22,180 nt of DNA from a virus: positions 1 to 22,180 of the IMG/VR virus record IMGVR_UViG_3300045932_000099. One strand, 5' to 3'. Both the position numbers and the translations under genes were made by a program. A model generated the notes under the pieces. That model made no database searches. It was not told the origin of the DNA and was given only the letters and a program-made list of their open reading frames with translations. Of the stretch, positions 718 through 4,669 are shown in pieces (positions within the stretch are counted from its first letter, which is position 1; each line of letters starts with the position of its first letter).

Positions 718-902
718 CGGCATCTCTCCTCGCGCTTGGCCTCCACCGCCACGGCCATCTGCGCTTCGCGCGCCTGTCGCGCCAGGGTCCGTTGATACGC
801 TTTGCCGCGATGGCACGCGGCTTCAATCTCGTCCAGGGTAAACACCAACAGCATGTCGGGCACGTCCAGGTGCCAGCGCTGGCCAACCTTGGTCAGGGTC
901 AT
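714..902 (-). CDS. Small unknown early protein (62 aa)
   Basis: A 62-residue protein with no recognised family. The start at ATG 902 has GGAGG five bases upstream and overlaps the stop of the zinc-motif gene as ATGA. A TTG four codons earlier is in frame but lies upstream of the ribosome binding site. The C-terminal half is a basic, Ala-rich helix. Its position between the replication genes and other small genes suggests an accessory early role. Confidence 0.6.
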   Translation of the reverse strand: MTLTKVGQRWHLDVPDMLLVFTLDEIEAACHRGKAYQRTLARQAREAQMAVAVEAKREERCR

Positions 903-1627
903 GACCGCCTCCAATCGCGGTAATTCTCCAGAATGGCGTCAGCCGTGGCGGCGTCAACGGTTTTGAGGTATGTTGACAGGATCGGTGGCATGTCACGGCG
1001 CGGGCCTTCGGTATATTCCGCTTCCTCGGCCGTCACGGGGATGTCGGCCATCAACTGCGGCACGATGGAGCGGACGAAGGCCCGTCCTTTCGGCGTCATG
1101 GCGGCCACAATGGCGAGCTTGTCCTCACGGGTGACGGGTTTGCCATGGCTATGGTCGGCGCGGTGCGGTGGGCACAGCCGCTCCATGCTGTCTGACGGCC
1201 AGCGCAGCCGATGGCGACAGCCAGGATGCTGACAGGGTATCCACGTCGCCGGCTCTTCGAGCCCCACCCCTAACTCTTGATCGCTCATGGCCGTCGCTTC
1301 CGCCAGGGCCTTGTCGCTGAAGTCTCCTGCCTGCCAGTGGTCATACTGGCGCCGCCAACGTTCCTCGTCCTGGTCGACCACGAGGGGCTGCGGTTTCGGC
1401 TCATGATGCCGGGCCATGGCCTTGATCTCGGCGGCGGTGGGCATGACTTGCTTGCGCATCTCATGGCCGAGCAGATCCAGGCAGGCACGCCGGACGGCCT
1501 CCATGCGGTAACTCTTCAGGATTTTCCAGTAGGCTTCGGCGAAAAAGTCGTTATAGATGGTGCCTTTATACATGGCGGCCATCTCTTGAAGCATGCGTTG
1601 AAATTCTGCGCGGTCGCTACTCTCCAC
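899..1627 (-). CDS. Putative helicase-loader-like protein with zinc motif
   Basis: A 242-residue protein directly after the replication initiator, overlapping it by 11 bases. Residues about 8-72 form a helical region (FQRMLQEMAAMYKG ... MPTAAEIKAMA) that recalls the N-terminal domain of phage helicase loaders of the G39P type. This is a pattern resemblance only. Residues 132-155 carry Cys-x4-Cys-x14-Cys-x2-His (C132, C137, C152, H155), a likely zinc-binding knuckle. The start is GTG at 1627, with AGGAGA about five bases upstream. Position after an initiator fits a role in bringing the host replicative helicase to the origin. An alternative is a general DNA-binding accessory protein. Confidence 0.6.
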   Translation of the reverse strand: MESSDRAEFQRMLQEMAAMYKGTIYNDFFAEAYWKILKSYRMEAVRRACLDLLGHEMRKQVMPTAAEIKAMARHHEPKPQPLVVDQDEERWRRQYDHWQAGDFSDKALAEATAMSDQELGVGLEEPATWIPCQHPGCRHRLRWPSDSMERLCPPHRADHSHGKPVTREDKLAIVAAMTPKGRAFVRSIVPQLMADIPVTAEEAEYTEGPRRDMPPILSTYLKTVDAATADAILENYRDWRRS

Positions 1628-2474
1628 GGGCTCTCCTTTCTTTCGCTTCGCGCTCCTCCTGTTCGTCCCGCTCCCGATTCAGGCGCCGGTACTCTTCCAT
1701 ATCGACACCGTTGATTACTTCGCGGCTGACTTCATCCTCCCAGCGCTGCTGACTCAGCCATGAGGCCGGGAAGGGGATGTATTGCCCGCTATCGCGCTGC
1801 CAATCGGGACTCTTGGCCTGGGCCGCAATGGCGGTGAGGATGGTATCGATGAGGTGCGGGGAGGGCTTCAGGGCTGCCCAGGCTTTCAGGGCTGTGCCTT
1901 TGGCCTTCTTCTTCGGATACGCTTGCCAGAACTCGTCAAACCGTGCTCGCCACGCGCTTGTTGCGGGCGATGCACAAGTACTTGGATCAATAGTTTTTTC
2001 TTGTTTTTCTCCATAATGACTAGAATCATTAATTACTAGTGTGCGATTGTCCGACTTCGGGTTTTCCGACATCGGGTTTTCCGAAGTCGGAATTTCGGAC
2101 TTCGGTACCGAAGTATGAATTTCGCACGTCGGTTCATCGAGCGTGCGATCTTCCTGATCCAGTGCTCGTAATCGTGGCGATTCATAGACGACCGTGACCC
2201 AGCCCACGAGCTGGCCTTTCTCGTTGCGCTGCCGCTGCCGATGGATGTAGCCTTCCCGCTCCAACTCTTGCAGGGTGGCGCGTATGGCATGCCGCCCGTC
2301 TCTCTTGGATTGCGCTTCGAGGTGCCGAATGTTGACCTCCCAGGAGTCCGGCTTACTCATCAGGTAGGCATGGAGACCACGCGCCCTGAAGCTCAGGTGC
2401 TCGTCATTCAATGCGGTAGTTTCCATGATGACGTAGGGATGTTCACGGCGCTTCTGGACGCGGATAATACTCAT
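1617..2474 (-). CDS. Winged-helix phage replication initiator
   Basis: A 285-residue protein with the layout of phage replication initiators. Residues about 20-100 form a winged-helix domain with a beta-hairpin (GYIHRQRQRNEKGQLVGWVT). A low-complexity linker follows (about 105-175). The C-terminal domain begins RFDEFWQAYPKKKAKGTALKAW and includes YIPFPASWLSQQRWED, a signature common in phage replication proteins. The linker contains four 5-residue repeats (P124-N143: PKSEI, PTSEN, PMSEN, PKSDN) encoded by 15-bp DNA repeats next to an AT-rich stretch, so the gene probably contains its own origin as lambda O does. The start at 2474 has AAGGA eight bases upstream. It is the first gene of the replication operon. 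Confidence 0.8.
   Translation of the reverse strand: MSIIRVQKRREHPYVIMETTALNDEHLSFRARGLHAYLMSKPDSWEVNIRHLEAQSKRDGRHAIRATLQELEREGYIHRQRQRNEKGQLVGWVTVVYESPRLRALDQEDRTLDEPTCEIHTSVPKSEIPTSENPMSENPKSDNRTLVINDSSHYGEKQEKTIDPSTCASPATSAWRARFDEFWQAYPKKKAKGTALKAWAALKPSPHLIDTILTAIAAQAKSPDWQRDSGQYIPFPASWLSQQRWEDEVSREVINGVDMEEYRRLNRERDEQEEREAKERRARGE
1985..2133. other. Putative replication origin inside initiator gene
   Basis: An AT-rich stretch (1981-2040 is 16 G+C of 60, 27%) adjoins four tandem 15-bp repeats and a fifth diverged copy at 2120-2133. Iterons beside an easily melted AT-rich element, located inside the initiator gene, is the arrangement of the lambda origin (established knowledge). That this is the origin here is inference. 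Confidence 0.55.
2047..2106. repeat. Four tandem 15-bp repeats (iteron candidates)
   Basis: The units start at 2047, 2062, 2077 and 2092. On the plus strand they read ttgtccgacttcggg, ttttccgacatcggg, ttttccgaagtcgga and atttcggacttcggt. Units 1 and 2 match at 13 of 15 positions; unit 4 is the most diverged. A related tttcgcacgtcggt lies at 2120-2133. Each unit has a partial palindrome (CCGAnnTCGG), typical of a protein-binding site. Confidence 0.8.
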
Positions 2475-2680: not shown

Positions 2681-2911
2681 TTAGCGCGGGGGTGCCGCCT
2701 GATAGGCTTCACTCAGCCGAATCGAATCCTGAATAATGCGCCGCAGCAGCCGCAGCGGCTCGGCGCCATAGGTCGCACTGGCATACGCTTCCCAGTCAAA
2801 GTCGCGCAGCGCTTGCTCGATGACATAGGTGCGCGTCGTCCCTTGCTGGGCAGCGGCCTGATCGATACTGGCCACGAGGTCATCCGGGAGGGTCAGCGAG
2901 AGGCGCGCCAT
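2681..2911 (-). CDS. Ribbon-helix-helix (CopG-like) regulator
   Basis: A 76-residue protein. Its N-terminus (MARLSLTLPDDLVASIDQAA, then GTTRTYVIEQAL) is a classic ribbon-helix-helix domain: a DNA-contacting beta strand followed by two helices. Such proteins act as dimeric repressors or as antitoxins. No toxin gene is adjacent, so a transcription regulator is more likely. The start at 2911 has GAGGGG six bases upstream; an in-frame GTG at 2917 overlaps that site. No promoter was seen between the gene and the terminator just upstream of it (2938-2984), so it may depend on read-through. Confidence 0.75.
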   Translation of the reverse strand: MARLSLTLPDDLVASIDQAAAQQGTTRTYVIEQALRDFDWEAYASATYGAEPLRLLRRIIQDSIRLSEAYQAAPPR

Positions 2912-2937
2912 GCGCACCCCCTCGCCGGCGGCAGGCG

Positions 2938-3104: not shown

Positions 3105-3323
3105 CTACTCTATCTCATCGGAGACCTCTCCCGGCTGCAAAAAACCTTCGCGCTCTAAGGACAAGCGCACCAAGCGCCGAATCGTTTTCGCCACGCTGGG
3201 GCGCTGATCTTCCGGGTGTTTACGGGCGTGGGCGCGGCGGGACTTCTCGATGGCATCCCACATGGGTTGCGAAAACCGAATTGGATGGACGGGCTTTTTC
3301 TTTGCCATCAGCAGGTCTGCCAT
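3105..3323 (-). CDS. Small ribbon-helix-helix-like DNA-binding protein (72 aa)
   Basis: A 72-residue, basic protein. A lysine-rich start is followed by VHPIRFSQPMWDAIEKSRRA and a helix PSVAKTIRRLVRLSLERE. A short strand and two helices of this kind suggest a ribbon-helix-helix fold; this is inferred from pattern. The start at 3323 has GGAG five bases upstream, while the next Met at 3308 has no such site. A near-consensus promoter lies just upstream at 3381-3409, so the gene may be transcribed on its own as well as from the gene to the right. The terminator at 2938-2984 ends this unit. Confidence 0.65.
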   Translation of the reverse strand: MADLLMAKKKPVHPIRFSQPMWDAIEKSRRAHARKHPEDQRPSVAKTIRRLVRLSLEREGFLQPGEVSDEIE

Positions 3324-3374
3324 ACCCTCTCCACAGCATTGGGGAGCATGAACCACTTGACAACTTGCACGATG

Positions 3375-3930: not shown

Positions 3931-3982
3931 CCATAATATTCAATTCTGTCAACTCGTATCCTGTTGATATTATGGAATATCA
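3931..3982. repeat. AT-rich inverted repeats at end of HNH gene
   Basis: CCATAATATTCAA (3931-3943) and TTGATATTATGG (3964-3975) are complementary apart from one bulged T. Overlapping them, TGATATT ATGG AATATCA (3965-3982) has perfect 7-base arms and includes the HNH stop codon. The two structures exclude each other. They could act as a terminator-like element for converging transcripts or as protein-binding sites. Confidence 0.5.
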
Positions 3983-4567
3983 GTCATGGGTAGCGTTTCT
4001 ATTTGATCGTTTCTTATCAAGATTGACATGACTGGAGGGATGGCAGTTGACCAAGGTGAGCATAGCGCCTAACCGATCGTGGATATGTCGTTCGAGTGAG
4101 CTCCGCGGCAAGGGAATGGGTATTCCCGTGGATGGTTTCGGCTCTTGTGGTCTGGGACGTGTGGGTTTGATGACCGCGGCCGTGAGGGCGTGATGCTGGC
4201 TGATTCGGGCTTGCAAGGCTTTGATCTGCTGGAGGATGACCCGTGCCCAGGCCCGGCGATACCACGCATTGCCGCGATGGCCTCTACGCGGCGTTTCGGC
4301 CCCGGCTAGGTGCTGCCAATCTGCTTCGTCGCAGAGCGCCAGCAAGGGCTGAACAGGGATCAGCGGGAGGCCATCGCGTTTGCGACTATTACAAGACTGG
4401 CAGGCGGGGACGATGTTGCTCATCGTCGTGGGGCCTCGTGCCGCTCTGGGCGTCACATGATCTTTCGTGAGTGATCGTGAGGACTTCCCACAATAGACAC
4501 AGCGTCCATGATAATGCGCTTTGATCATGTCCCAATGGGCAGGCGTAAGCTTCGGGAACGTATCCAT
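3980..4567 (-). CDS. HNH endonuclease
   Basis: A 195-residue protein with a complete HNH core near the N-terminus: zinc-ligand pairs C23-x2-C26 and C56-x2-C59, the D36-H37 dipeptide that begins the catalytic motif, N51 and N60. HNH nucleases of phages cut DNA; some assist terminases, others are homing enzymes. The C-terminal 120 residues are basic and do not match a family I know. The start at 4567 has GGAGG nine bases upstream. It is alone, on the opposite strand to the late genes, and separated from the terminase genes by three small genes, so a packaging role is uncertain and a mobile, homing-type gene is possible. Confidence 0.85.
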   Translation of the reverse strand: MDTFPKLTPAHWDMIKAHYHGRCVYCGKSSRSLTKDHVTPRAARGPTTMSNIVPACQSCNSRKRDGLPLIPVQPLLALCDEADWQHLAGAETPRRGHRGNAWYRRAWARVILQQIKALQARISQHHALTAAVIKPTRPRPQEPKPSTGIPIPLPRSSLERHIHDRLGAMLTLVNCHPSSHVNLDKKRSNRNATHD

Positions 4568-4669
4568 GCGTAGCAACCTCCAGACAGGTTGGATGATCCA
4601 GAGGAACAGACGTGCGGGCAACCGACCTCTGGAAGTCGGCTATCGGGCGTCCCCTAGCCCGCACACGTG

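Follow-up and report, generated by a model that had tools for sequence, protein, structure and literature searches.

The replication origin of the phage represented by the window (a virus record of 22,180 bp with a mean GC content of 62.4%) very probably lies at positions 1976-2132, in the linker-coding part of the phage's own initiator gene, where it would be bound and opened by the initiator. The segment consists of tandem 15-bp boxes and an adjoining AT-rich stretch (Table 1), and it is a precise, testable candidate origin for an uncharacterised high-GC phage. Comparison of homologous genes shows that the DNA of the box, rather than the linker peptide, is conserved in this initiator family.

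Table 1. Features of the window and the basis on which each was assigned
Feature	Position	Strand	Basis or remark
Four tandem 15-bp boxes, consensus CCGANNTCGGAAAAN; putative initiator-binding iterons	2046..2105	(-)	Repeat analysis and family-wide DNA conservation
Box copy 1 (gene strand), CCGAAGTCCGAAATT	2091-2105		Encodes PKSEI
Box copy 2 (gene strand), CCGACTTCGGAAAAC	2076-2090		Encodes PTSEN
Box copy 3 (gene strand), CCGATGTCGGAAAAC	2061-2075		Encodes PMSEN
Box copy 4 (gene strand), CCGAAGTCGGACAAT	2046-2060		Encodes PKSDN
Diverged fifth box, CCGACGTGCGAAATT, encodes PTCEI	2118..2132	(-)	Sequence
AT-rich stretch beside the boxes; putative DNA unwinding element	1976..2042	(-)	Lowest-GC 60-mer
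Replication initiator gene, 285 aa	1617..2474	(-)	ORF, PHROG_270 match and AlphaFold2 model
Winged helix-turn-helix domain, residues 1-101; putative box binder	2172..2474	(-)	Structure and sequence matches
Initiator linker, residues 107-168; encodes boxes and AT-rich stretch	1971..2156	(-)	Low model confidence, no predicted structure
C-terminal helical domain, residues 172-285	1620..1961	(-)	Model; PHROGs 9474 and 9327
Next operon gene, 242 aa; candidate helicase-loading partner	899..1627	(-)	Position only
CopG-type ribbon-helix-helix gene (PF01402)	2681-2917	(-)	Upstream of initiator
Small gene, no informative match	3105-3356	(-)	Upstream of initiator
HNH endonuclease gene (PF01844, E = 2e-11)	3980-4621	(-)	Between early genes and terminase region

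The four boxes have a mean pairwise identity of 0.77, a value that was reached by none of 1000 codon shuffles of the initiator gene; elsewhere in the window the identity never exceeds 0.56. A period-27 array found by TRF at 2081-2133 is further evidence for the diverged fifth box. A better description of the 15-bp unit is that of a 10-bp near-palindrome (CCGA-NN-TCGG in three of the four copies) with an A-rich spacer of 5 bp after it; over the 10-bp core, copies 2 and 4 are each other's exact reverse complement. The AT-rich stretch contains, at 1976, the lowest-GC 60-mer of the whole window (25% GC). The first-pass annotation had described four 15-bp repeats and a diverged copy, the pentapeptides that the repeats encode, and an AT-rich element next to them, and each of these is borne out. 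GC skew, which it had put forward as a means of mapping the origin, gives no independent support and is rejected as evidence, because the skew follows gene orientation.

The ORF that contains the boxes is a real gene, and the assignment of its product as a likely replication initiator is upheld by a match to PHROG_270 ('replication initiation protein'; E = 1.9e-36) over residues 9-251, that is, most of the sequence. The protein also matches several further PHROG families of replication-initiation, primosomal, and DnaD-like loader type, and relatives of it are present in 278 phage records, where they are often annotated as replication initiator or DnaD-like protein. In the AlphaFold2 model the pLDDT is about 85-96 for residues 11-100, below 50 for most of residues 107-168, and 80-96 for residues 172-245. 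The boxes and the AT-rich stretch sit between the DNA-binding and C-terminal domains, the order on the gene strand being the winged-helix domain, the diverged box, the four tandem boxes, the AT-rich stretch, and the C-terminal helical domain.

Most of the best structural matches of the initiator N-terminus are to replication initiators or to proteins of the primosome. They include RctB domain 1 (Z = 7.7), Geobacillus DnaB (7.2), 4pql (6.8; a DNA-binding-protein N-terminal domain), DnaD (6.4), the MDR initiator 4pta (5.8), and the Rep-DNA complex 5kbj (5.7); these matches should be taken as an indication of a shared common fold only, because Z values below 8 are common among winged helices. At the sequence level the N-terminus has MarR-type HTH matches. 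A plain Foldseek search of the PDB gave no match below E = 0.001, and no solved relative was found in a sequence search with the single protein. The window initiator lies below the Pfam gathering score of HTH_36 (PF13730), which is passed by the relatives L057, L101, L055, L102, and L063. The C-terminal domain matches the replication-initiation or primosomal PHROGs 9474 and 9327, and is the putative contact to the helicase or a helicase loader.

Given the encoded peptide, the synonymous codon choice of the window boxes is mildly more alike than expected (p = 0.015), and because this signal is weak, the window alone barely separates a constraint on the peptide from a constraint on the DNA. The value leaves room for the repeats to be a low-complexity PxSEN linker that arose by recent tandem duplication, with a DNA likeness due to peptide and ancestry; tandem duplication gives alike copies without selection, and the linker is disordered in the model. 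As the window is indecisive on this point, it is the comparison with relatives that decides.

A search pattern was defined by DNA only, as a pair of CCG-NNNN-CGG-AAAA boxes at a distance of 15 bp, with 20 bases fixed in all. It occurs at no fewer than 119 loci (at least 119) in IMG/VR and likewise at at least 119 loci in the GTDB genome set, while the chance expectation, for uniform composition, is about 0.5 match in the 257 Gb of the genome set. Among the matches listed, the array lies in sense inside a gene with the window's winged-helix domain at 102 of the 118 analysed viral loci, and in antisense inside winged-helix initiator genes at seven more, which gives 109 viral loci; the median distance from the winged-helix domain to the array at the analysed viral loci is 8 aa. 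Of the 111 genome loci analysed among the matches listed, 56 are of the sense type and two more (L176 and L180) are antisense, and the remaining ones resemble repeat proteins, truncated genes, or chance. A pattern found by DNA alone is thus strongly concentrated in the initiator gene, which argues against the PxSEN-linker explanation. Two such boxes, 15 bp from each other and located after a winged-helix domain, make up a rule by which origins can be predicted in many small plasmids and phages not yet cultured.

When relatives were picked by protein similarity, ignoring the DNA, significant 15-bp arrays (p ≤ 0.005 by codon shuffle) were present in most of the distinct genes tested, and so the repeats do recur in relatives with the same initiator, their absence having been named beforehand as a ground for rejection. 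A minority of the homologues (L013, L014, L015, and L287) have no significant 15-bp array by codon shuffle, L018 has a borderline one outside the linker, and in a few relatives the best 15-bp array is the AT-rich part itself and not the boxes. Searches for near relatives of the window phage through its initiator or terminase yielded distant kin only, and the terminase relatives are without this initiator. The window's own array is therefore not traceable in near kin.

The reading frame and the orientation of the boxes vary within the family. After dereplication at 90%, the rows among the matches listed are distributed as 101 in S0, 15 in S1, 3 in S2, 5 in A2, and 4 in A0. In sense frame 0 the boxes encode PxSEN peptides, as in the window; in sense frame 1 they encode xGKxx peptides, e.g., VGKTEVGKTEVGK; in sense frame 2 they encode NRxRK peptides; and in the nine antisense rows among the matches listed the peptides are of the kind GFPSSGFPSS and GFSVNGFSVNG. 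Such differences exist between close homologues: L084 and L123 differ in box frame despite 88% identical winged-helix domains, and L063 and L069 differ in box orientation despite 78% identity in that domain. In L084 (minus strand of the locus) the frame even changes within the array: two boxes share a frame and the one that follows is in another, because one spacing is 16 bp instead of 15. On the winged-helix tree, frame or orientation needs to change 21 times, at least seven of these changes being forced by well-supported branches (S0 versus the rest); the exact count is uncertain because the tree is short (98 columns).

Selection on the peptide cannot yield boxes in several frames and two orientations, while selection on the DNA box can. 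Since the boxes occur in three sense frames and in antisense, the DNA box is the conserved element and the linker peptide is a by-product, in agreement with the first-pass proposal that a DNA constraint shapes the protein linker. The PxSEN-linker explanation is largely refuted by the unrelated peptides that the same box encodes in homologous genes, and the occurrence of the multi-frame arrays in independent contigs argues against assembly artefacts; this explanation is considered extremely unlikely. The multi-frame arrays thus reveal, without experiment, a peptide-independent selection on linker DNA, which is otherwise hard to achieve for an in-gene origin, and in annotation the PxSEN or xGKxx repeats should not be taken for protein motifs. 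No earlier description of a frame- and orientation-free box family was found in a non-exhaustive search of mainly open-access literature, and as far as searched, the family across phages and small plasmids is apparently undescribed. In the linker of L284 (about nt 266-325 after the match start at 1501), a single array contains boxes in both orientations, with the peptide PSSGFPSSAFPVSEN.

The box core and the flanking DNA also have features common to the family. Inner box positions are complementary more often than in permutations (0.40 vs 0.29 and 0.38 vs 0.30; 277 copies, among the matches listed), which is modest evidence for a dyad site because the excess is about two standard deviations when one copy per cluster is used. 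In 88 clusters among the matches listed, the 60 bp on the 3' side of the array have a mean GC of 0.29 versus 0.44 locally, and the lowest-GC 50-mer within 1 kb starts in these 60 bp in 65% of the clusters versus 3.5% for a uniform random position, a signal that is partly inflated because the linkers of low-GC relatives are AT-rich anyway. For seven of the nine inverted arrays, the lowest-GC 50-mer in the gene likewise begins on the gene's 3' side, at a distance of no more than 25 bp. Because the AT-rich side stays 3' in most inverted arrays, box polarity seems irrelevant, while the order from boxes to AT-rich stretch matters, and the AT-rich element, which had been proposed as part of the arrangement, retains its place 3' of the array far above chance.

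A motif, TAAATACT, is found in the AT-rich stretches of 20 of 85 clusters among the matches listed, versus 0.8 expected from dinucleotide shuffles, and the commonest spacing of ACTRA in these stretches is 15 bp. The motif can also be given as AATACTRA. The AT-rich part of the window (2011-2042) has a weak version of the motif only, CACTAGTAATTAATGATTCTAGT. The motif TAAATACTRA is possibly a second recognition element, either for the initiator on the single strand or as DnaA-trio-like triplets on the other strand, and its signal could partly reflect an N-rich peptide in the preferred frame. In L131, 15-bp units of the type AATTCTAGTAATAAT are regularly repeated in tandem within the AT-rich part 3' of the boxes.

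Two features of the in-gene origin architecture of the oriLambda and SPP1 oriL type, tandem repeats in the initiator gene and an adjacent AT-rich element, are present in the window. The parallel with lambda O that had been drawn in the first-pass annotation is a fair one. oriLambda, within gene O, has four dyad (hyphenated) iterons joined by adenines and adjacent to an AT-rich region, and the iterons lie over the linker between the DNA-binding N-terminus and the partner-binding C-terminus of O (PMC6022878). The window is alike in having four iterons and an AT-rich region inside the initiator gene over an interdomain linker. In contrast, each lambda iteron includes an 18-bp inverted repeat, while the window has 10-bp boxes at a pitch of 15 bp; and at the protein level the window initiator matches the O-like phrog_345 only weakly (E = 3e-4) and has no match to Pfam Phage_rep_O.

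The likeness to SPP1 oriL and to pSK41 is no less close. In SPP1, oriL lies within gene 38, where its direct repeats are bound by gp38 and adjoin an AT-rich DUE (PMC6316719); this is the same architecture of repeats and AT-rich element within an initiator gene. In pSK41 four Rep boxes are located centrally in rep and are bound by the N-terminal winged helix, and Rep can function in trans without the linker that the origin encodes (PMC5703833). The window resembles RepA_N plasmids such as pSK41 in this architecture. Its initiator model matches 4pql, 4pta, and 5kbj at a fold level that is common among winged helices, and its initiator has no match to the RepA_N Pfam domain (PF06970) at E ≤ 1. 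The hybrid Rep of pPR9 joins a phage-like pfam13730 N-terminus with its own origin to a pSK41 C-terminus, which shows that an N-terminus of phage type and the origin within its gene can be exchanged together as a working cassette (PMC5703833). By this description pPR9 resembles the window family, many relatives of which have an HTH_36 (PF13730) N-terminus together with the same boxes, although the window protein itself is below the HTH_36 threshold. Judged by sequence features, the arrangement in the window is of the oriLambda, SPP1 oriL, and pSK41 type, and its protein is of the PHROG_270 initiator class.

From the observed anatomy, homology, and frame- and orientation-independent conservation of the boxes, we infer how the boxes would be bound, the DNA melted, a helicase recruited, and the origin fired. 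The initiator would bind through its winged-helix domain, probably as dimers, to the near-palindromic 10-bp boxes that recur every 15 bp, and the resulting complex would strain and open the adjoining AT-rich stretch. The C-terminal domain would then recruit either a loader or the replicative helicase itself, and replication of the theta type would begin. The linker peptide would have little sequence requirement of its own and would be whatever the box DNA encodes.

Genes of this family with an embedded array are also found on small plasmids. The ends of two Paenibacillus contigs, L240 and L244 (the latter with coverage 534 in its record title), overlap exactly, which implies circles of 4379 and 4175 bp. 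Each carries a single initiator-family gene, in which three exact boxes lie together with an AT-rich stretch, and no second initiator gene was recognised on either circle. The two have in common a segment of 1254 bp with the initiator gene (95.5% identity) plus an HTH gene, and elsewhere they differ in part. This suggests that an initiator gene with its embedded array can support a replicon. In comparison with the window, the circles have a 46% identical winged helix, the same CCG-N4-CGG-AAAA boxes, and an AT-rich stretch, but they are plasmids and not phages, have a different C-terminal domain, and are low in GC. Relatives of the window initiator protein are present in 127 plasmid records of PLSDB.

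In relatives such as L057, L102, L121, and L240 the same winged helix and boxes precede quite different C-terminal domains (e.g., Phg_2220_C in L102), which suggests exchange of the partner-binding module. It is likely, though with less assurance than the origin itself, that the winged helix, the frame- and orientation-free 15-bp boxes, and the AT-rich element (with its own motif as a possible second recognition element) form an exchangeable cassette on varied C-termini in a large family of phage and small-plasmid initiators, the linker peptide being dictated by the origin DNA.

The boxes may instead bind the initiator mainly for the repression of its own gene or the limitation of copy number (as an operator or by handcuffing), with the origin elsewhere. 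Many initiators of iteron plasmids autoregulate through their own iterons, and the frequency of such autoregulation favours this explanation, as does SPP1, which has a second gp38-bound origin, oriR, about 13 kb from oriL (PMC6316719), so that one array need not be the sole array. The window, however, has no second box array anywhere in its length. The boxes are located in the middle of the gene, far from the start codon, the AT-rich stretch stays on the same side of them in most cases, and in the small plasmids the array lies inside the only gene recognisable as an initiator gene. A mainly regulatory role is therefore regarded as unlikely, and an origin at the boxes is preferred.

The neighbouring genes bear on the third explanation, that the array belongs to a plasmid-like phage as a centromere-like partition site or another protein-binding site, and is recognised by some protein different from the initiator. 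Short repeats in tandem are a usual feature of parC/parS sites as well, and the CopG-like ribbon-helix-helix gene is nearby. Against a partition site, the array goes together with the initiator's winged-helix domain, inside the gene, across many phages and plasmids, and no partition genes were recognised in the window; this explanation is considered very unlikely. In several annotated relatives, a DnaC-like loader or DNA replication gene lies directly or nearly directly downstream of the initiator gene. Neither a helicase nor a loader could be recognised among the genes of the 22-kb fragment, and the gene in that downstream position (899-1627) has no informative family match in Pfam or the PHROG profiles and no solved-structure match. 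The reading of this gene as a G39P-like helicase loader, in a module such as gp38-gp39-gp40 of SPP1, found no support, as a search gave no relatives and the single-sequence model is unusable. Upstream of the initiator gene, the CopG-type gene is a candidate regulator of the replication operon.
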